Source of the DNA: Candidatus Bathyarchaeota archaeon
GTDB taxonomy: Archaea; Thermoproteota; Bathyarchaeia; Bathyarchaeales; SOJC01
Reading direction: 5' to 3'
DNA length: 64,000 nt
Assembly (NCBI GenBank): GCA_026014805.1
Contig: JAOZHR010000029.1
Location: forward strand, 1 to 64,000
In this document: positions 2,012 through 20,998 of the stretch, in pieces
Position numbering within the stretch: position 1 is the first letter of the stretch
Layout: each line of letters opens with the position of its first letter
Made by a program: the position numbers and the translations under genes
The notes under the pieces: model-generated
The model's database searches: none
Told to the model about the DNA's origin: nothing
Seen by the model: the letters and a program-made list of their open reading frames with translations, nothing else

Positions 2012-3220
2012 TTGAAGCCTTTGAGTTTTGTTCACGTGGCGGACATCCATTTGGGCTATACCCAATATAACCTAGAGGTAAGGCGTAGAGACTTCAATAG
2101 AGCCTTCAAAGAAGTTGTTGACAAGACACTAGAGTTGAAACCAGACTTCATGATAATCGCTGGAGACATTTTCCACCATGCAAGGCCCAGCAACGTCACG
2201 TTAGAGGCTGCAATCAAAAACTTTAGTCGACTTCGAGACGTAGATATTCCAATCCTAGTTGTTGACGGTTCTCATGATGCTGCGCCAAACATAATAACAA
2301 GCACAATTCTTAACCCGCTGGATGCGGCGGGCCTACTGTACTATTTGCCTCGTCACGAAGGCGCCTGTTGGCGAAACGAAAAATGTTACATCTACGGCAT
2401 TCCGAACTACAGAACCAGACGAAAAACGGAAGAACAACTTCCGCTTTTCTACGAGGAAAATAAGCCATCACCCGACCCCGCGTTGTTTAACATATTCGTT
2501 TTCCACATGGCGCTAGACTTACCCAGCGTCAAGCCACCACAAATGGAAGCAGAAGCTCCGCCTGAACTTTTACCAGAAGGTTTCAACTATTACGCGGGTG
2601 GACACGTTCACAAGCCATTTAAAAGCAGATTCAAGACTGGTACTTTAGCCTATAGTGGTTCTACCGAGACTGTTTATTATGATGATGCAAAGCTAAAGAA
2701 AGGCTTCTATTATGTGCAAGTAGACGAGGAAGGCAAAGCTGAACTTCAACACACAAAACTAGAGAGCCCCCGCCGCTTTGTGATCTTGAAAAACGATTAT
2801 TCCCACATGACTCCGGCGAAAATTAGCGAAATCGCGGCTCACCGAGTTAAAGAAAACGATGAAGAAGGCGCCATTATTGTTCCCGTTTTGAAAGGAGTTC
2901 TGCCCGCTGAAGCCAACCGAAGCCAGATAGACATTGCTCGAATTAGGAATGCGGCAGAAAAAGCACTTCTAGTCCATCCAATCATTCGATTAAATGAGGC
3001 AGAGGTGCCAGAAGCGGTTGTGCGCTCAATATTTGAAGGCGAGCTTAAGGACTTGAAAACTAAAGCTTTTGAATATTTTCTTCAGATATTTTCTGAGCGC
3101 TACTCAAGAGACGAGGCTGAGAAAATTGCGCGCCTTTCAGTAAACATCATCGAACCGCTAACTCGGAAAGATGAAGGCAAAGTAAAGGAGGCGTTGGAGG
3201 CGCATTCAGATGCGAATTAA
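2012..3220 (+). CDS. mre11: DNA double-strand break repair nuclease Mre11
   Basis: The nuclease half of the Mre11-Rad50 complex, which resects DNA double-strand breaks. Metallophosphoesterase motifs are in order: DIH (Asp11, His13), GDIFHH (Asp52), GSHD (87-89), a His in VFHM near 165, and GHVH (His198, His200). The canonical third motif is GNHD with Asn as metal ligand; here it is Ser87, while the catalytic His88 remains. The TTG start is chosen because AAAGGAG lies 12 bases upstream and the DIH motif falls at the usual distance from the N-terminus. It overlaps rad50 by 11 bases, so the two are translationally coupled. Confidence 0.95.
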   Translation: MKPLSFVHVADIHLGYTQYNLEVRRRDFNRAFKEVVDKTLELKPDFMIIAGDIFHHARPSNVTLEAAIKNFSRLRDVDIPILVVDGSHDAAPNIITSTILNPLDAAGLLYYLPRHEGACWRNEKCYIYGIPNYRTRRKTEEQLPLFYEENKPSPDPALFNIFVFHMALDLPSVKPPQMEAEAPPELLPEGFNYYAGGHVHKPFKSRFKTGTLAYSGSTETVYYDDAKLKKGFYYVQVDEEGKAELQHTKLESPRRFVILKNDYSHMTPAKISEIAAHRVKENDEEGAIIVPVLKGVLPAEANRSQIDIARIRNAAEKALLVHPIIRLNEAEVPEAVVRSIFEGELKDLKTKAFEYFLQIFSERYSRDEAEKIARLSVNIIEPLTRKDEGKVKEALEAHSDAN

Positions 3221-5291
3221 AGCCATAACTTTGGAAAACATCCGCTCTCATGCCAAATCCAGAATTGACTTTGAGAAAGGGTTTAACTGCCTAGTTGGGG
3301 GTCTAGGAACCGGCAAATCCAGCATACTTTACGCTATCGATTTTGCTTTGTTTGGCGACCCTTTGACGAGAAGCTATCATTATCTTTTACGTGAAGGAGA
3401 AAATTCGGGAAAGGTGGCAGTCGAGTTTCTATTGAATGGTAGAACCTACCGCATTGAAAGGGGATTGAAGAGACGTGGAAAGGGGATAGGCCAAGACGTG
3501 GAGCACCTGAAGTTTTACGAAGAAGACAATTTAATCGCCAGCATGAGAAATGAAGCTGTTGCGGAGCAGTTGAAAAGCATAACGGGGCTAGATAAGGAAA
3601 TTTTCCGTGAAGTTGTGTGGGTTAGGCAGGAGCATCTTAAGGAATTATTGGATATAGCTCCTCGAGAACGGCAGAAACGGTTAGACCAGCTGTTTGGATT
3701 AAGCGACTACGAGGTGGCGTGGAACAACATACGTGGAATTCAAAGAGAATACGAGGGTGAAAAGAAGGCTTACGAGAAGGACTTTGACGTTCTAGGAATA
3801 GAGAAGCTTGAGGCTGAGTATCATAAAGCTGTTGAAGAATTCTCAAATCTTGAAAATGAAATTCTTAACTTGACTAACGGGCTGCAAGAAGCAGAAACGG
3901 CTTTGCAAGCCGCATCTACCCAACTTCAGAACCTTGAACAACTGAGAAAACAAACTGAGGAATTATTAAGGAAAGAGGCTGAGCTTCAAACAAACACCGT
4001 AAACAGCGAAGACATGTGTGCAAGGCTTGCAAATCAGATTCAAAGAAAAATAGCGACTATTGGCGAATTGGAGCAGCGTTTGGAAGCTTTCAAAGCAAAG
4101 CTGAACTTGCAGAGAAAAAAGCTGCAAGAAATCGGTCTGGCTTCAGATTTGACAATTGAAGAACTAAAACACCAACTAACTTCCTTTGATGAGCAGATGA
4201 CAAGCATAAGAGCTGAACAGGAAGCGGCAAGAAAAGAAAACCAAGTCTCCAAGCAACGAGTCTCCAACCTCGCAGCCGAAAGCAAGTGCCCACTCTGTCT
4301 ACAGCCTCTTCCAGAAGACTACAAAGCACACATGCTAAAACATATCGAAGAAGAGAAGGCGGAAAGAGAAGGAAAACTCGTAGAACTGAAGAAAAACATT
4401 CACGAACTGGAAAAACTAAGAGACGTTGCAAACAAAGCAGTTTTAGACTTTCAATCATATACTCCCAGAATTCAAGACGTAAAAACGCGTGTTCTTGAAG
4501 AGATTGAGTCCAAGGAGAAACTGGAAAAAGAATTTGAAGAACACCAATTGCGAGAAAAAATGTTTAGGACCCAGCTTGAAGAAGCCCGCAAAGAAATCGA
4601 AAAATTCGACATATCAGAACTGGAAAATGCACGGAGCCTCCATAAAACCACATCTGAGCAATATCATACAATCAAAACAAGGCTCGAATCCAGTGAAAGC
4701 TGGAAAAAGGATACCTCCTTTAGGATTGAAGAGTTTCGCGAACGGGTTATGCACGCTCAGCAAAAGATTGAAAGAGTGAAAAAAATAGAGAAATTGTTGG
4801 AAATCCTTGATGGAATTCGCGATGCTTATAGAGGCATACAGCCCCAGCTGCGAACGGAGTTTGTCAGAATCTTGGAACGAGTGGTTCAGCAAGTGTTAGA
4901 CAGTCTTGTAGGCGAAGAAGACATTGCGTTGATCGCACTCATTGACGAAACCTACACTCCCTCTATTAAAAGCCAAGAAGGCCATGAACGGGAAGTCTCT
5001 TATCTTTCCGGTGGAGAACGCACCCTTCTAGCGTTCGCCTACAGGTTTGCTCTGGGTCAGCTTATTATGCAGGCACGAACAGGACACGGCTTGCAGATGC
5101 TCTTGTTGGACGAACCCACAGAAAGTCTCGGTAGGGAAGACCGTTCCGTTGACCGCTTAGCGGAAGCAATCGCACGTCTCAAAGCTATAGAGCAGATAAT
5201 CGCAGTCACCCACAATGAAGCTTTTGCAGAAAAAGCTGAGCACATAATAAGGTTGGCTAAGGAAGCTGATGTAAGCAAAGTTGTCGCTTAA
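3210..5291 (+). CDS. rad50: DNA double-strand break repair ATPase Rad50
   Basis: The ABC-type ATPase partner of Mre11. The Walker A motif is GGLGTGKSS (31-39). Long coiled coils (about 180-560) flank a central zinc hook CPLC (Cys360, Cys363). The signature motif LSGGERT lies near 598, and Walker B is MLLLDEPTES near 630. The length (693) is short for Rad50, implying short arms, but the hook sits in the exact centre as expected. It starts inside the end of mre11. Confidence 0.95.
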   Translation: MRIKAITLENIRSHAKSRIDFEKGFNCLVGGLGTGKSSILYAIDFALFGDPLTRSYHYLLREGENSGKVAVEFLLNGRTYRIERGLKRRGKGIGQDVEHLKFYEEDNLIASMRNEAVAEQLKSITGLDKEIFREVVWVRQEHLKELLDIAPRERQKRLDQLFGLSDYEVAWNNIRGIQREYEGEKKAYEKDFDVLGIEKLEAEYHKAVEEFSNLENEILNLTNGLQEAETALQAASTQLQNLEQLRKQTEELLRKEAELQTNTVNSEDMCARLANQIQRKIATIGELEQRLEAFKAKLNLQRKKLQEIGLASDLTIEELKHQLTSFDEQMTSIRAEQEAARKENQVSKQRVSNLAAESKCPLCLQPLPEDYKAHMLKHIEEEKAEREGKLVELKKNIHELEKLRDVANKAVLDFQSYTPRIQDVKTRVLEEIESKEKLEKEFEEHQLREKMFRTQLEEARKEIEKFDISELENARSLHKTTSEQYHTIKTRLESSESWKKDTSFRIEEFRERVMHAQQKIERVKKIEKLLEILDGIRDAYRGIQPQLRTEFVRILERVVQQVLDSLVGEEDIALIALIDETYTPSIKSQEGHEREVSYLSGGERTLLAFAYRFALGQLIMQARTGHGLQMLLLDEPTESLGREDRSVDRLAEAIARLKAIEQIIAVTHNEAFAEKAEHIIRLAKEADVSKVVA

Positions 5292-10812: not shown

Positions 10813-11751
10813 GTGGTGTCAATGGCAAATAGACAGAAACGCAAGACAGGTAAAAAGGGTTTAAACAGAAAATTATTAACTGGTGTTGTTCTGATCACTA
10901 CTACTCTTTTGGCTATTTTTGTCGTATATTTCCTATTTTTTCAGCATCACACAGAAAATTGGACAGCCGTCATAATAGACCAACTAGTTGTGCAAGAAGA
11001 ATTGGCAAACCAAATTTTTAATGCTAATTGCACTTCAATACTGAACGCTTCAGGGTTTGATGTGAAATACTATTCCGGTAGCGATGTCAATGTGAAGTTT
11101 TACAAAGATCTTCCTTCTAAAGGCGGCAAAATAACAATTCTGAGGGCTCACTCAGCAGTAAGAGATAACACAGATTGGGTTGATCTGTTCACGAGTGAGA
11201 GCTTTAGTAAAGACCGACATACTGATTTAGCGAGTGATAGGCAGATCAGTAAGGCTCAGATGTATTCGTCTGATGAATGGTATTTTGCCATTGGTCCTAC
11301 GTTTGTAGATCGAAGCATGACCGGATTGTTTGACAGCAATTGCGTAATTATTTTGATGGGATGCAATAGTCTTAACGAGACGACTATGGCAGAAGCATTA
11401 GTCGGAAGAGGCGCTAAAGTTGTTATAGGGTGGACTAGTTGGGTAGAAGCGAGCTATACTGACTCCTTTACTATACAACTGCTTCAACGTTTACTCGCTG
11501 AGAATCCCGAGACCATTAAAGGTGCTATAAGCAAGATAAATCACCAAATAGAACTCTATCATCCAAATCGTTACAACACAACACTGACTTACTATCCAAC
11601 ATCAGATGAAGCTGCGAGCCACATTATTCCAACGAGAAACAATGAAATATCTCCGGGTTTTATAGGAGAATTATTCCAAATTTTGCTCTTTACTACTTTG
11701 GCAAAACGGAAATGTGACGTGCAGATGGCCTCTTTAGTTGAGGCGAAATGA
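10813..11751 (+). CDS. Membrane-anchored CHAT/caspase-like cysteine peptidase
   Basis: A 312-residue protein with a basic cytoplasmic N-terminus, one membrane segment (about 22-44) and an extracytoplasmic domain. That domain shows the clan CD pattern: a hydrophobic strand ending in ILRAHSAV (His113) and a second ending in VIILMGCNSLNE (Cys184). After it comes MAEALVGRGAKVVIGWTSW, closely resembling the CHAT sequence after the catalytic Cys. The start is GTG at 10813 or ATG at 10822. The peptidase assignment is inference from the His/Cys motif pair. No neighbour suggests a substrate. Confidence 0.6.
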   Translation: MVSMANRQKRKTGKKGLNRKLLTGVVLITTTLLAIFVVYFLFFQHHTENWTAVIIDQLVVQEELANQIFNANCTSILNASGFDVKYYSGSDVNVKFYKDLPSKGGKITILRAHSAVRDNTDWVDLFTSESFSKDRHTDLASDRQISKAQMYSSDEWYFAIGPTFVDRSMTGLFDSNCVIILMGCNSLNETTMAEALVGRGAKVVIGWTSWVEASYTDSFTIQLLQRLLAENPETIKGAISKINHQIELYHPNRYNTTLTYYPTSDEAASHIIPTRNNEISPGFIGELFQILLFTTLAKRKCDVQMASLVEAK

Positions 11752-13207: not shown

Positions 13208-13441
13208 CCGAAAGCAACTATGGAATACCACAAAACCAAAGACATTCTTTATGTTAAGAAACTTCTTGGACACAAACGTATCGAAAGCACAATGCTTTAC
13301 ACACAGCTCATAGATTTTTCAGAACACGAATACAATTGCAAAGTGGCAGAGAATGTTGAGGAAGCTAAGAAGTTGGTTGAGGCAGGCTTTGAGTTTGTAA
13401 CCGATTTTGATGCATACAAACTCTTTAGAAAACGGAAGTAG
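13208..13441 (+). pseudogene. C-terminal remnant of a tyrosine recombinase
   Basis: After an in-frame TAG (13205) the frame reads KATMEYHKTKDILYVKKLLG, then HKRIESTMLYTQL. This is the end of the tyrosine-recombinase catalytic domain with the LGH motif and the Tyr nucleophile. The N-terminal domain, Arg I and the HxxR motif are absent. The tail (AKKLVEAGFEFVTD, then FRKRK at the stop) is a C-terminal extension that recurs in the remnant ending at 36501. Confidence 0.75.
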
Positions 13442-13493: not shown

Positions 13494-15578
13494 ATGTGTT
13501 TCTATCTACTGCTACAAGAAGGCCTCACAACAATGTTGATTCATGAAGTAATCCTCGAAAACTTCATGTCCTACGAATACGCCAGAATACCCCTTAAATC
13601 AGGCGTAAACGTGATTTGTGGGCCAAATGGCGCAGGAAAGTCATCCATACTCTTAGGCATCTCAGTAGCATTAGGTCAATCTTACACTGAACGCTCGAGA
13701 AAACTAAGCAACCTCATAAGATGGGGAAAAGATCAGGCACGAGTAACAATTGTCTTAGACAATTCTCTGAGAAAAGGCAAGCGCCCAGTTAAGAGATTTA
13801 ACAAAGACCAAATCTTCCTAACTCGCGGATTAAGGCGTGATGGAAAGTATTGGTTTGAATTCGATAATCGTGCTGCAACAAAGAAAGAAGTTGAAAGACT
13901 GCTGGCGAAATTCAACGTAGAACCCGACAACCTCTTGATTATTATGCATCAAAACATGACTGAACAGTTTACAGTTCTCTCCCCTCAGGAAAAACTTGGA
14001 ATAGTTGAAGCAGCTGTTGGCTTAGAACTTTACCGAAGAAACGTCTGGCAAGCAAGAAAAAAGTTAAGCCACATATTAAGCGAAGAAGAGTCGGTAAGCA
14101 AGCTTCTCGAATCAGCTGAACAAACGCTGAACTACTGGCGCGAACAATATGACCGCTACCAGCAAAAAAAACAACTGCAGATAAAAAGGCGATTTCTTGA
14201 AAGGGAACTTGCGTGGGCAGAAGCCTTGAAAAAAGAGACGTCCATGGACGAACTGGAAAATCTGCTTAAAACAGAGGAAAGGGAACTCCAGCAAATCGAA
14301 AACAAAACAGAAACATTGCAGGTTACACTTGACGAGCTGCAATTAAGGCTGGAACAAGCAAAATCACAGTGGCAAAAACTCTTTCAGGAACGCCTATCAA
14401 TAGAAACAGAAAAAGTGAAAAACGAAGCTTTCATTTCGTTAAGAACTCAAGCCCTAGAAGAAATGAGCCAACTATTGGAAAACAACTGCGAAAAAATAGG
14501 CGAATGCATAGCCATGGTTGAGCAGCTGGAAACATCAATCAGCACACAACAAAATCCAAACGACTACATGAAAAAACTTGCAGAGATAAAAATAATATAC
14601 AAAAATCTTGAAAACATGTGGATCCAACAGCATAGTCAAAAGAGCGAAAACCTGAAAGAACAAAAGGAAATCTGCAATGAACAGCTTGAAAAAACCGACA
14701 AACATCTTTTAGAAACACGAATGAAGACAGAATTTGCTACAAAAGAAATTGAAGACCACACTAACCAAATCATAGACTCGAAAATTGACGCTGCCCTATT
14801 AAACTACAGGAAACGGAACATCGAAAAACATCTTCAAAAGCTTCGCAGAGAATTGAAAACCAAAACAAGGGAATATGAAGAAGCTGTAGAAAAGGCAAAA
14901 AAAACTGGCTCCAGAATAGCGTCAACAAAACATGTTAATGAAATTCTAGACGAAATTCGGTTGACTGATGGTTATCTTGTAGCCCTTGGAGACGTTTCAG
15001 AAGACATCGAACGCATGTATGAGTCCTACTCCAAACTCTACCTAGACCTAAAAGAAAAAGCACGAACAGTAGCAGAAAACAGAGAAAAAACCTTGGAAGA
15101 AGTTAATACTCGAATAGAAGCATGGCACACAGTCATGCAAAGTCTCCTTGACCACGTAGGTCTTCAATACCAGAGAATTTTGTCGCAAGCTCAAGCTACA
15201 AGTGAGATTCATTTGATCAATGGCCATGATATAGAAGCCGCTGGGCTAGAAGTGCTTGTAGGCTTTAGAGGCGCCCAACCAGTCCCATTGGACGCCTACA
15301 CTCAGAGCGGAGGGGAAAGAAGCATGGCTACCATGAGCTTTCTCTTAGCTTTACAGCAGCATGTGCAGTCTCCTTTCCGCGCAATTGACGAATATGACGT
15401 CCACATGGACCCGAAAAACCGTGAAATAATAGCTAATCTTCTCATAGAATCAGTCAAGGGCTTAAACTCGCAGTATTTAATAATAACGCCAAGCCAAATC
15501 ACCTTTGCGATACAAGACATCCACATCATAACAGTGCAGAATGTTGAAGGCGCATCTAGAGTGAAAGAGGCTGTCTAG
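13494..15578 (+). CDS. SMC5-like, hingeless SMC/Rad50-superfamily ATPase
   Basis: An ABC-type chromosome ATPase. Walker A is CGPNGAGKSS (42-51) in the N-terminal head. Coiled coil runs from about 190 to 560. The C-terminal head has the signature QSGGERSMATMSFLLALQ (604 on) and Walker B FRAIDEYDVHMDP (628 on). QSGGERS, 'FR-x-x-DE' and 'MDP' match eukaryotic SMC5 far better than Rad50 (LSGGE, LDEPT). There is neither a CxxC zinc hook nor a globular hinge; at 694 residues it is Rad50-sized. Start: ATG 13494 follows TAGGAG closely; ATG 13533 (Met14, MLIHEVILENFMSYE) fits the family N-terminus better. The next gene starts at the base after the stop. The DNA-loop or tethering role is inferred. Confidence 0.85.
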   Translation: MCFYLLLQEGLTTMLIHEVILENFMSYEYARIPLKSGVNVICGPNGAGKSSILLGISVALGQSYTERSRKLSNLIRWGKDQARVTIVLDNSLRKGKRPVKRFNKDQIFLTRGLRRDGKYWFEFDNRAATKKEVERLLAKFNVEPDNLLIIMHQNMTEQFTVLSPQEKLGIVEAAVGLELYRRNVWQARKKLSHILSEEESVSKLLESAEQTLNYWREQYDRYQQKKQLQIKRRFLERELAWAEALKKETSMDELENLLKTEERELQQIENKTETLQVTLDELQLRLEQAKSQWQKLFQERLSIETEKVKNEAFISLRTQALEEMSQLLENNCEKIGECIAMVEQLETSISTQQNPNDYMKKLAEIKIIYKNLENMWIQQHSQKSENLKEQKEICNEQLEKTDKHLLETRMKTEFATKEIEDHTNQIIDSKIDAALLNYRKRNIEKHLQKLRRELKTKTREYEEAVEKAKKTGSRIASTKHVNEILDEIRLTDGYLVALGDVSEDIERMYESYSKLYLDLKEKARTVAENREKTLEEVNTRIEAWHTVMQSLLDHVGLQYQRILSQAQATSEIHLINGHDIEAAGLEVLVGFRGAQPVPLDAYTQSGGERSMATMSFLLALQQHVQSPFRAIDEYDVHMDPKNREIIANLLIESVKGLNSQYLIITPSQITFAIQDIHIITVQNVEGASRVKEAV

Positions 15579-16397
15579 TTGTCAACAAAAAGGCAAAAGA
15601 AACGGCTGGGCAGAGAGCATCTTCAACGCATCATCGATTCATGCCGCTCAGTTGAAGAGAGGGGACTAGACCCATTTCTAGTGGACGTAGACCACGTACT
15701 TACAATCATCCACGAGTATTTTCCAGAATGGGAAAACCCAGAAGAACTCTGCCTAGACGCAGAGGCTATACACGAATTAGCCTCGGCCATTAAGCATCAA
15801 AGCGAATGGATTAAACACCGCTCGACATCACTTTACACAGATCCATTCCTAATAGAAGAAAAGCTTCGAAAACTGTCAAAAGAAGAAATTGGCACAATAT
15901 TCCTCAAAAGTTGGCACCCAATAGTGGAACTCGAACAAATTTCGCCCCACAGCCTAATGGAGGCAACCAAATACTGGCAAAATCTAATTCCACTTAACGA
16001 AAGATGGCAAGAAACAGCAGGGCTACAGGCAGAAACTGGAACCACAACACGCGAAGAACTACTGAAACAGCATATCATAACTGAAAAAGAGTTTTCCAAA
16101 GAACTGGAAATGTTCTGGCAAGAACTCAAACAAAAAACGATGGGTGAAGAGAAAATCGATTACTGGGATTTTATAGGCGCCAAAACCTATGAAGAAACAG
16201 TCAGACGTGCATACATGACAAGTTTTCTCGTTACATATGGTTACGCAACGCTGGAGGTAGACAGGTTAGAAGAAATGGTCTACATTAGGTCCTACAAAAC
16301 TCCCATTCCCACAGTGGGCAATAAGCAGGCGATTTCTCTGCCTATCCCAGTAAGCGTTGAAGACTGGAAAAATTGGATGGAAGGTGTGAAAGATTGA
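15579..16397 (+). CDS. Helical partner of the SMC5-like ATPase (candidate kleisin)
   Basis: A 272-residue protein of no family I recognise. A TTG start directly abuts the stop of the ATPase gene, so translation is probably coupled. The first 200 residues are mainly helical with many Trp and Glu. The last 90 (RRAYMTSFLVTYGYATLEVD onward) look like a small alpha/beta domain, possibly a winged helix. Size, position and a helix-linker-domain layout fit a kleisin-type bridging subunit (compare ScpA or Nse4). This is inference from context; no kleisin motif is firm. Confidence 0.55.
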   Translation: MSTKRQKKRLGREHLQRIIDSCRSVEERGLDPFLVDVDHVLTIIHEYFPEWENPEELCLDAEAIHELASAIKHQSEWIKHRSTSLYTDPFLIEEKLRKLSKEEIGTIFLKSWHPIVELEQISPHSLMEATKYWQNLIPLNERWQETAGLQAETGTTTREELLKQHIITEKEFSKELEMFWQELKQKTMGEEKIDYWDFIGAKTYEETVRRAYMTSFLVTYGYATLEVDRLEEMVYIRSYKTPIPTVGNKQAISLPIPVSVEDWKNWMEGVKD

Positions 16398-16945
16398 AGA
16401 AGAAAACCTATTACGCCACCAAAGTAAAACAAGCTACTCACCTGCTTTTTTTTAAACGTCACAGAAAGCCTGGAGTAAAAGGCTGGGAGTTAAGGAAAAG
16501 ATTAGGAGTAGACTATCCAAAAATCATGGCTTTACTAAATAGCCATCTTGGAAATCTAGACCTGCAGGTGAAGACTGTTTTCGAAGAGACAAAGCCACCA
16601 GAGAAACCAACTAGGACGCAGTTGGATGGAGCACGATTCTACGTAACTCTGCGCGGAGGGCTTACGCCAAAGGAGACAAAGATGATGGGGTGGCGCATTG
16701 ATGACATAGCAGGCTTGGCCGTAACTATTTCCACAATAATAGCGAAGAAAGGGAAGGCCTCCAGAGAGGAGGTGGAGATGCTTTTGCGGGATAAACTGCC
16801 AGGTTGGAGAGTTGATGCTAATATAGACCGTTATATGCGAGCAGGCTACGTAGATCAAGACGAGAAGGGACAGCTTTACCTAGATTGGCGGACTAGAGCA
16901 GAAATAGACGAGAAAACTTTGATAGATTCTCTAATTGCGAAATAA
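16394..16945 (+). CDS. Tandem winged-helix partner (candidate KITE/Nse1-3-like)
   Basis: A protein of about 183 residues starting at a TTG whose bases form a TTGA overlap with the previous stop; GGAAGGTG lies seven bases upstream. It has two winged-helix-like units. The first (about 25-75) is GVKGWELRKRLGVDYPKI plus wing. The second (about 100-170) contains ISTIIAKKGKASREEVEMLL, then GYVDQDEKGQLYL as wing. Tandem winged helices are the build of KITE subunits (ScpB, MukE, Nse1/Nse3), which bind kleisins in SMC complexes. The third place in the SMC5-like operon fits that role. Confidence 0.6.
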   Translation: MKKKTYYATKVKQATHLLFFKRHRKPGVKGWELRKRLGVDYPKIMALLNSHLGNLDLQVKTVFEETKPPEKPTRTQLDGARFYVTLRGGLTPKETKMMGWRIDDIAGLAVTISTIIAKKGKASREEVEMLLRDKLPGWRVDANIDRYMRAGYVDQDEKGQLYLDWRTRAEIDEKTLIDSLIAK

Positions 16946-18100: not shown

Positions 18101-20998
18101 TTACCGATTCTTCTTTTTCTCCCAGAACGGTTTAGTCCGTAAATACTGGATTTTCGCCTTCAGAAGGTCCATGTAAAATTCGTCTTCGCGTGGATGCATC
18201 CTCCCAAGAATCCTAAAAGCTGTTTCAGGCCCCACACCTTTAGTCTGCAAAGCAACTATAGCCTTCTTGCCATAACTTAGAATCAGATCTGCAGTTCGAC
18301 GCGCGTATACCAACTCATCCAATTCCTCAGGAGTTAACTTCTTTCCTTCCCGTCTCTGTTCCAGCAAACTACGCAGAGTACGCGGGTCTTGCCTCCGCAT
18401 CAATTTCGCCAGCAGCCCAGAACCACACTTTTTGCATACTAACTTCTCCGGAAGGTCTCGAACTCGTCTTTCTTTGATCAAGTTACTACATGACAGACAA
18501 AGTAGCCTCACTGTCCTCGCTAACGTTGACTTTTTCATTCTTTCTATGTTGCTGAGAACAATGTGTTCAGGCGCCATAAGCTCTGCAACTTCGGAGTATT
18601 TTGCAAAGATGTGATAGGCTAAGGGCGTAGGCTTTTCCAATCTAAGCACCGCGTTGACTCTAACTTTACCCTCGTTAACATCTTTCATTATCCGCTTCAC
18701 TGTCGTAATGTCCATTTTTTCAATCATTGCTTCGCGAATAGTTTCGTCATAAATCGGCGTCTTCTTGAACCGCGAAGGAAGCGCCGTCATCCTCTCCATG
18801 CTCATAGTTTTTCCTCGCGGTAAAGCTCCAAAACGCTCTGCCACAAATTTCATTTTGTAAGAGAATGGAAAGCGTGCCCTAACATACTCATTAAACGCCT
18901 TGTCAACTTTATTAGATGACGAGTTAAAAAGCAGCCGTGAAACTTTTTCCAGCGTTTTTACCTCGACCTTTCGAGGCATTTCAATCAAGATGCGGTATCC
19001 GTCATTCCACCAAGCCACAATAAGTTCGTGGTCAGACAGTATCGCGTCAAAAATGCTACCTAAAGTACGGTTTACAATCTCTCCAAAACATACATGAACT
19101 ACAATGTATTTGTCGAAGGCTTCAAGAAGAATGCGATCATGTGTTGGAAGAGGTAAGTTTTCTTTCAAATATGCGTCTATCTCTTTGACTGATTCAATAA
19201 GCGCGTTTTTCTCTACTCCAAGTTTTTCTGCGAGTTTTTCTGCTGCCAGCTTGACACTCTCGCCCTTTTTCAATTCCTCTGCAATTTCTTCTCGCAACCT
19301 GCCAACTTCTTTAGCCAAATCAAAAGGAACTGGGAGCATCTCGCCGTCCCATCCTGGAATTGCCGCAAACTGATCTTCTGAAGGAACTACATAGACCGTA
19401 CCCGTTTCGTCTTCTATTTGCACGATACGCCAAACTTTGCCTTTGCATATGAAGCTTAGACCTACGCGGGCCCTCAGAGCCATAAACTCATCGCCCAGAG
19501 TGCCTATTCTTCGGTCAGAGAGAACATCAACTATGGGATAGCGTCTTTCATCTGGTATCATAGAGAGATTTCGGTAATAGTAGTCCCGCGTTCGCCTAGT
19601 TTTCTTCAATACTTCGCCTTCTAGTCTCACTTCTCTCAGAATATGTAGATAATTTGCAACTTCTAAAATGTTAGCTTTTGAGAGGTTCCTAAACGGATAT
19701 GCACGATGAAAAATCTTCAAAACCTCATCAACCCCAATAGTTCCCTTGTCCATCAGAATCCCCGCAGTTTGATGCGCAACCACATCCAACGCGTTTTCAT
19801 GAATCAAAAGGGGTTCAAGCTGTCCCTTACGGGCTCTCTGTGCTGCAGCTAAAGATTCTAAAACATCTTCAGAAAAAGCTGCAACAATGACGCCTTTTGA
19901 CGTGAGGTTTAAGCGGTGACCGCTTCGACCAACTCTCTGAATCAAGCTGCCGACTTGCCGTGGAGAAAGATACTGAATCACCAAGTCTACTTGCCCAATA
20001 TCAACTCCCAACTCCATAGTGCTGGTGCAAACTATGGCTTTCAAAGTATTTGCCTTAAATTCGTCTTCAATTCGCATTCTCTCCTCTCTGGATAATGACC
20101 CATGATGCACCCCAATGTCATCTGTAAGCAAACTAAACCTATGTCCTAACATTTCAGCGTTGGTTCTACTGTTTACGAAGATAAGTGTCGATGAATGTTT
20201 TCTAACTAGGTCAAGCATATGTCTAATTCTTGCAGCAGCTTGAGGTGCTGTTCTCAATTTCTGAGCAGAATCATAATCTACATCTGTAGGAGTTGGGTAT
20301 TCAACAGTGTATGAATAGCCTTTGGGTAGCGAAATGCCCAGAACCTTAATAGGTCTGCCAGTGCCTGCGACGAATTTAGCAGTTTTTTCAGGACTTTCTA
20401 CAGTTGCTGACAAGCCTATCCGCTGAAAATTCCTTCCAGCCAGCTCAGCAAGTCTTTCAAGACCTACCGAAAGCTGTGTTCCACGCTTACTTGTTGCTAG
20501 CTCGTGCACCTCATCAATTACTATGCAACGTATATGGCTAAGATGTTTTTGCATTCGTGAACCAGGCAATATTGCTTGAAGAGTTTCAGGCGTGGTAACC
20601 AGAATGTCTGGTGGCTGAATTGCTTGTTTTCTTCGAATTTTGGTTTCGGTGTCGCCGTGGCGAACTTGTACGGAAAGGTTGAGTTTTAATGCCCAATAAG
20701 ACAAGCGTTTTATCATGTCACGATTTAGGGCACGAAGGGGAGTGATGTAGAGAACTGAAATTCCCTGTCTTTTTGGCCGTTCGAGAATTTTTGAGAATAA
20801 TGGAAGAAGAACAGCTTCTGTTTTGCCACTTCCAGTTGGTGCGACTAGGAGAACATTTTTACCTTTCAAAACAAAGGGAATAGCTTTCACCTGCGGTTCT
20901 GTGGGTTCAGAAAGCCCTAGCTCTTCTAAAATATCTTGAATAGGCTTGGCCAGCAGTTTGAAAACTTGAGCTTCTTCCTTCAAACTAAAACCTAACAC
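18101..20998 (-). CDS. lhr: Lhr-type ATP-dependent helicase
   Basis: A large superfamily 2 DNA helicase of 965 residues. Motif I is APTGSGKT (53-60) and motif II is a DEVH box near 160. The Lhr core continues with VNSRTNAEMLGHR, ELGVDIGQVD and QRVGRSGHR. Beyond it come the winged-helix and Lhr-specific domains. A four-cysteine zinc ribbon (CLSC...CKKC) lies near residue 860, before a C-terminal helical region with a GVGPETAFRILGRM helix-hairpin-helix-like piece. Lhr enzymes remodel branched or mixed DNA/RNA during repair. Confidence 0.92.
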   Translation of the reverse strand: MLGFSLKEEAQVFKLLAKPIQDILEELGLSEPTEPQVKAIPFVLKGKNVLLVAPTGSGKTEAVLLPLFSKILERPKRQGISVLYITPLRALNRDMIKRLSYWALKLNLSVQVRHGDTETKIRRKQAIQPPDILVTTPETLQAILPGSRMQKHLSHIRCIVIDEVHELATSKRGTQLSVGLERLAELAGRNFQRIGLSATVESPEKTAKFVAGTGRPIKVLGISLPKGYSYTVEYPTPTDVDYDSAQKLRTAPQAAARIRHMLDLVRKHSSTLIFVNSRTNAEMLGHRFSLLTDDIGVHHGSLSREERMRIEDEFKANTLKAIVCTSTMELGVDIGQVDLVIQYLSPRQVGSLIQRVGRSGHRLNLTSKGVIVAAFSEDVLESLAAAQRARKGQLEPLLIHENALDVVAHQTAGILMDKGTIGVDEVLKIFHRAYPFRNLSKANILEVANYLHILREVRLEGEVLKKTRRTRDYYYRNLSMIPDERRYPIVDVLSDRRIGTLGDEFMALRARVGLSFICKGKVWRIVQIEDETGTVYVVPSEDQFAAIPGWDGEMLPVPFDLAKEVGRLREEIAEELKKGESVKLAAEKLAEKLGVEKNALIESVKEIDAYLKENLPLPTHDRILLEAFDKYIVVHVCFGEIVNRTLGSIFDAILSDHELIVAWWNDGYRILIEMPRKVEVKTLEKVSRLLFNSSSNKVDKAFNEYVRARFPFSYKMKFVAERFGALPRGKTMSMERMTALPSRFKKTPIYDETIREAMIEKMDITTVKRIMKDVNEGKVRVNAVLRLEKPTPLAYHIFAKYSEVAELMAPEHIVLSNIERMKKSTLARTVRLLCLSCSNLIKERRVRDLPEKLVCKKCGSGLLAKLMRRQDPRTLRSLLEQRREGKKLTPEELDELVYARRTADLILSYGKKAIVALQTKGVGPETAFRILGRMHPREDEFYMDLLKAKIQYLRTKPFWEKKKNR

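Follow-up and report, generated by a model that had tools for sequence, protein, structure and literature searches.

Do three tightly packed archaeal genes encode a relative of the Smc5/6 complex that operates without a hinge, and what would such a complex do? The question is raised by a 64,000-nucleotide stretch of Candidatus Bathyarchaeota archaeon (contig JAOZHR010000029.1, hereafter the window), part of a Bathyarchaeia-type metagenome-assembled genome of 1.79 Mb, in which three plus-strand open reading frames form an operon at positions 13533-16945. Smc5/6 is usually regarded as eukaryotic, and the source of its kleisin and KITE subunits is an open point; both SMC rings and loop extrusion are considered to require the hinge. 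A preliminary description, made from the DNA sequence, had read the operon as a hingeless SMC5-like ATPase with kleisin- and KITE-like partners. From the ATPase heads, the folds of the two partners and their conserved linkage, we conclude, with a probability of roughly 0.8, that the three genes specify a minimal SMC-kleisin-KITE complex belonging to the Smc5/6 branch, most likely with a role in repair.

The ATPase heads group with SMC5 and SMC6

A head-only query against the PDB retrieved yeast SMC5 with 124 bits, followed by human SMC5 (102), SMC6 (99) and Pyrococcus Smc (98), compared to ~32 for Rad50. In a head tree of 42 taxa and 402 columns (LG+F+R4), the archaeal ATPases, SMC5 and SMC6 form one clade, with an approximate likelihood ratio test/ultrafast bootstrap support of 98.6/99, separate from a clade of archaeal SMC, SMC2 and SMC3 (99.4/99). 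MukB lies outside the SMC clade, and a grouping of Rad50 with the operon ATPases is absent from the maximum-likelihood tree. Moreover, the approximately unbiased (AU) test rejects the grouping of the ATPase with canonical archaeal SMC (p=5e-49), with all canonical SMCs (0.012) and with Rad50 (0.012). By sequence, the heads thus belong to the SMC5/SMC6 clade.

The ATP-binding and signature motifs are intact, and the catalytic motifs listed in the preliminary description are all present. Three motifs are shared only with SMC5/6: QSGGER, R-x-x-DE[FY]DVxMD and, following the D-loop strand, a TP pair in place of the TL, SL or TF of canonical SMCs. However, the proposed SMC5 specificity did not hold: QSGGER and MDP match SMC5, whereas DE[FY]DVxMD matches SMC6, and the AU test does not separate a sister position to SMC5+SMC6 from one to SMC5 or to SMC6 (p 0.41-0.56). 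Because of these mixed motifs and the unsplit placement, we label the ATPase SMC5/6-like rather than SMC5-like. The operon carries a single ATPase gene and the genome of the window a single SMC5/6-like SMC_N match, so the two-SMC heterodimer that marks Smc5/6 was not found.

The ATPase lacks a hinge and a zinc hook

Conservation of the ATPase amounts to ~0.65-0.9 in the heads and to 0.20-0.31 at the coil tip (residues 301-360), where 14-36% of the positions are gapped and several orthologues have lost the segment almost completely. As the coil tip is the least conserved and most indel-rich part, it is not expected to hold a hinge; in the genome of the window, a search with the hinge family PF06470 matched only a separate canonical Smc and no operon protein. 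The absence of a hinge domain is thereby confirmed at the level of sequence, and so is that of a zinc hook, as CxxC occurs in no ATPase orthologue.

Clear orthologues span 572-699 residues, a length similar to that of Rad50, which also shares the context of DNA repair but differs in its own zinc hook, its nuclease partner and its head clade. This length, weak Rad50 hidden Markov model (HMM) scores and a nearby Mre11-Rad50 pair are what could be said for a Rad50/SbcC- or RecN-type repair ATPase that happens to lie beside two unrelated genes. We consider this extremely unlikely, given the hookless orthologues, the head tree and AU test, and two partners that are kleisin and KITE by fold and are inherited together. 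In addition, the window encodes an ordinary hooked Rad50 elsewhere, and therefore the operon ATPase is not the Rad50 of this genome. A Rad50/SbcC identity was rejected on the missing zinc hook, the head tree and the AU test (p=0.012).

The archaea-specific SMC-related proteins (ASRPs; coalescin, Sph) are likewise archaeal, shortened SMC-like ATPases. Unlike the operon ATPase, they mostly carry a zinc hook, according to PMC9389158. An ASRP or coalescin identity was rejected, as the NCBIfam ASRP model gave 42.8 bits against a cut-off of 300 and the hook is missing.

The partners resemble Nse4 and Nse1/Nse3

Nse4_C is the only Pfam family broadly matched by the kleisins, with hits in 53 of 57 orthologues (best 1.9e-5) and in 17 of 24 more distant members (best 5.6e-9); taken alone, the kleisin of the window stays under the curated cut-off (20.8 vs 26 bits). 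Searched against PDB sequences, the kleisin profile found yeast Nse4 (2e-5), then human NSE4B/EID3 (3e-4) and then ScpA (0.02). The AlphaFold2 model, with a predicted local distance difference test (pLDDT) score of 73.8, shows long helices in its N-terminal part and ends in a winged helix; the product, first described as helical, is thus helical in part but not throughout. Foldseek ranked Nse4 of Smc5/6 first (4e-5) and second (1e-4), and all of the top ten matches are kleisins. Sequence profiles and model together identify the second gene product as a putative Nse4-type kleisin.

The third product was modelled at a pLDDT of 85.8 with two winged helices, as had been anticipated. Its best four Foldseek matches are NSE1/MAGE-G1 and Nse1-Nse3-Nse4 chains (3e-5 to 1.5e-4), followed by MAGEA4, MukE, yeast Smc5/6 and JetB. 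Among 23 distant KITEs, the Pfam families matched most often were MAGE (six) and SMC_Nse1 (three), at a marginal E of ~0.001; a profile search of the KITE alignments against PDB sequences gave no meaningful match. Each of 51 KITEs contains zero or one cysteine, and therefore no RING is expected. The predicted fold thus points to a KITE of the Nse1/Nse3 type. A viral origin was discarded, since no relatives were found in viral contigs.

The same SMC-kleisin-KITE composition is found in MukBEF and in Wadjet JetABC, whose KITEs match more weakly than NSE1/MAGE. Accordingly, we weighed whether the operon might be a mobile SMC system directed against plasmids or phages, of the Wadjet or Lamassu kind, a reading to which JetB among the fold matches and an integrase fragment just upstream could be added. 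It is highly unlikely, because the operon encodes no JetD-like Toprim nuclease, the KITE has no viral relatives and the distribution is broad and single-copy. PADLOC returned generic ATPase matches only and none for the partner genes, and on this lack of support Wadjet or another defence system was rejected.

The operon is conserved across the phylum

The ATPase is present in 33 of 41 near relatives and was found in 53 contigs, nearly all of Bathyarchaeota; almost every complete locus has the two partner genes immediately after it. A clear exception to the linkage is an orphan paralogue (L045:2027-4072), 60% identical, with no kleisin or KITE gene beside it. Across the phylum, sampled by 398 genomes, the kleisin profile matches 157 of 398 genomes and the KITE profile 157 of 397; both occur together in 155, and each of them without the other in two. 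Outside the order of the window, and mostly outside its class, 17 of 20 loci carry the ATPase, kleisin and KITE genes in unchanged order and orientation. In the three others, the ATPase is not adjacent (L131), divergent (L135) or not recognisable (L139). An operon conserved in dozens of species is therefore not a product of chance, and the co-occurrence of the partners, proposed as a check in the preliminary description, was borne out.

Two departures from this pattern were observed. In L131 and L177, two inserted genes of 186 and 362 codons, whose products are secreted or pilin-like, split the kleisin gene from the KITE gene, with the ATPase gene not adjacent; operons broken in this way are few. 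In addition, a whole bathyarchaeal genus (g20 of family f6; G024, G030, G033 and G039) appears to be without the operon and has kept the canonical hinged Smc.

The ATPase gene had been placed from 13494 with 694 codons; the gene stands, but the start is most likely the ATG at 13533, giving 681 residues, since M1-L2-I3 of this shorter form is near-invariant in 58 orthologues. Each partner gene had been taken to begin at the preceding stop codon. This applies to the kleisin gene, with a TTG start at 15579 immediately after the ATPase stop, but not to the KITE gene, whose TTG start at 16373 overlaps the kleisin gene by 25 nt. Orthologues show much the same spacing, with ATPase-kleisin gaps mostly of -4 to +5 nt and -25 nt as the commonest kleisin-KITE value. 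The features are listed in Table 1.

Table 1. Genes of the operon and of its surroundings in the window (positions in nucleotides; parts in residues).
Feature	Position	Strand	Parts and remarks	Basis
SMC5/6-type ATPase, predicted hingeless, 681 aa	13533..15578	+	N-head ~1-165; N-coil ~165-320; variable tip ~320-360; C-coil ~360-500; C-head ~500-681	sequence motifs, head matches, tree
Nse4-like kleisin, 272 aa	15579..16397	+	helical N-terminal domain (helices 2-28, 37-50, 54-85); C-terminal winged helix 169-238	Pfam Nse4_C, PDB profile, AlphaFold2 model, Foldseek
Nse1/Nse3-like KITE, 190 aa	16373..16945	+	two winged helices, no RING	AlphaFold2 model, Foldseek, Pfam MAGE/SMC_Nse1, cysteine count
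Mre11	2012..3220	+	~10 kb upstream of the operon	sequence motifs
Ordinary Rad50	3210..5291	+	CPLC zinc hook	context
Lhr-type superfamily 2 helicase	18101..20998	-	convergent neighbour kept in distant lineages	genomic context; no proven subunit

Relation to the canonical Smc-ScpA-ScpB system

The genome of the window also has an operon for Smc (1182 residues), ScpA and ScpB (L142), and therefore the three-gene operon is a second system there. The two are alike as packed ATPase-kleisin-KITE operons, but the canonical system has a long, hinged Smc with heads in the SMC2/SMC3 clade, and ScpA and ScpB in place of the Nse4-like and Nse1/3-like partners. Among the 398 genomes, 76 have the operon and a hinge match, 81 the operon without a hinge match, and 93 a hinge match without the operon. 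PF06470 misses divergent SMCs, as in G048, G063, G055 and G187, which have SMCs of 1128-1161 residues without a match to the hinge HMM; the absence of a canonical Smc was therefore judged by SMC_N searches only. Among 12 genomes checked in this way, the operon ATPase was the best match in nine (85-99% complete), in frames of 581-657 residues. These nine belong to five families (f20, f24, f36, f65 and f59) and have no canonical-size SMC among the frames listed. At a threshold of 1e-20, no canonical SMC was found in five of 14 genomes. Such genomes matter because Crenarchaeota, including Thermoprotei, have been reported without smc, scpA and scpB (PMC7055376).

All three observations, the nine genomes, the five of 14 and the Thermoprotei precedent, could also be taken to mean that the same subunits form the same complex to fold the chromosome, as an archaeal condensin substitute, and not to repair DNA. 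For genomes that show no canonical Smc it is the main competing explanation; as a general account it is possible but rather unlikely. The full Smc-ScpA-ScpB operon is kept in the window's own genome, and among the listed genomes of its order 17 have a hinged SMC but not the three-gene operon; in that order the complex is therefore accessory. The missing hinge and the short arms would also speak against loop extrusion in large steps, and the genes for Lhr and Mre11-Rad50 nearby point to repair.

In two loci of family f20 genomes without a detectable canonical Smc, L161 (12012-13688, plus strand) and L164, a eukaryote-type topoisomerase IB gene adjoins the operon.

Gene neighbourhood

Lhr is encoded in 17 of 43 surveyed loci and lies directly beside the KITE gene, in convergent orientation, in 12 of them, across distant families. 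Archaeal Lhr prefers replication-fork substrates, according to PMC7437997. Mre11-Rad50 genes are close to the operon in three loci, the window, L066 and L069, with Mre11 as cluster c18. In one locus, a HerA gene precedes the L139 copy, and the protein before HerA, without a Pfam match, is a probable NurA.

A conserved protein of ~228-230 residues (cluster c4), without a Pfam or NCBIfam match, recurs in 15 loci from several families, close to either the operon or Lhr, for example at L048:6122-6808 (minus strand), L161:13805-14488 and L170:11989-12723 (both plus strand), and might be a functional partner. In the window itself, a 73-residue fragment just 5' of the operon (13220-13441, plus strand) looks like the C-terminal end of an integrase of the phage type (Pfam 0.012) and is probably a remnant. 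Further upstream, a 312-residue protein (10813-11751, plus strand) has no Pfam match; judged by the motifs GCNS and HSA, it may be a secreted peptidase of the caspase-like or CHAT type.

A proposed hinge-independent DNA clamp

In the minimal Smc5/6-branch complex that we favour, two copies of the single ATPase would engage by their heads around two ATPs. The kleisin would attach to the neck of one ATPase by its N-terminal helices and cap the other ATPase with its winged helix. A KITE homodimer on the kleisin linker, together with the heads, might grip double-stranded DNA, as Nse1/3/4 do on the Smc5/6 heads. The arms, with ~150 residues per helix, would reach roughly 20 nm, and their far ends would not be locked by any known domain. 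As there is no hinge, head engagement and the kleisin bridge may keep the complex closed, which would make it an ATP-gated DNA clamp and not a hinge-closed ring. Both ancestry and neighbour genes speak for a role in repair, most likely the recognition and stabilization of DNA structures in fork or double-strand-break repair alongside Lhr and Mre11-Rad50. In lineages showing no canonical Smc, the complex may also have taken over general chromosome organization. The fuller proposal, that this is a hinge-independent archaeal sister of Smc5/6 whose ATPase, kleisin and KITE, one of each, are the ancestral set, that it is an ATP-gated clamp, and that several archaeal families have no other SMC complex, stands at about even odds.

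Several points weigh against these conclusions. The head tree leaves out SMC1 and SMC4, and its support comes from one model, LG+F+R4, with none from a mixture model; the Rad50 and all-canonical groupings both survive the Kishino-Hasegawa and Shimodaira-Hasegawa tests, whereas the AU test, the resampling of estimated log-likelihoods and the expected likelihood weights reject them. The kleisin model is moderate (pLDDT 73.8, pTM 0.39) and superposes well in the winged helix only (TMt 0.55-0.76), and the KITE assignment comes mainly from fold, with marginal sequence scores (E ~0.001). Assembly and mechanism are inferred by analogy. The link to repair is one of association, and an ancestral gene order, rather than function, could account for the synteny with Lhr. 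Nevertheless, Rad50-type heads, unconserved partner genes and unrelated partner folds were each looked for and none was found, and the interpretation in the preliminary description is supported.

Comparison with eukaryotic Smc5/6 and implications

The operon resembles the eukaryotic Smc5/6 core (Smc5, Smc6, Nse4, Nse1 and Nse3) in head motifs and tree position, in an Nse4-type kleisin and in an Nse1/Nse3-type KITE. It differs in having one ATPase and one KITE instead of two of each, in the lack of a hinge, in much shorter arms and in a KITE without RING. Neither the SUMO ligase Nse2 nor Nse5/6 is encoded in the operon; no genome-wide search for them was made.

A 2025 study by Van Hooff et al. 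is said to treat SMC evolution from archaeal ancestors. That archaeal relatives of SMC5/6 had been discussed before, as stated in the preliminary description, is correct: in PMC9389158, citing Yoshinaga & Inagaki 2021, and in PMC10003631, archaeal "SMC5/6-related" SMCs group with SMC5 and SMC6. The ATPases of Yoshinaga & Inagaki 2021, as cited in PMC9389158, fall in the same clade and probably include the operon ATPase family. It was thus reasonable to see a bearing on the origin of Smc5/6, but the archaeal ATPases were already known. In the literature accessible to our search, no description was found of the Nse4-like and Nse1/3-like partners, the operon or the missing hinge; these are apparently the undescribed part, which may overlap with Van Hooff et al. 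2025 (Cell Rep 44:115855).

With all three subunit types in one compact archaeal operon, the system provides a single-ATPase, single-KITE comparator for the Smc5/6 ancestor. Moreover, as the hinge is absent across dozens of genera in which kleisin and KITE are kept, its necessity becomes testable, and the lineages for which this seems to be the sole SMC complex would reveal the capabilities of an SMC complex without a hinge.

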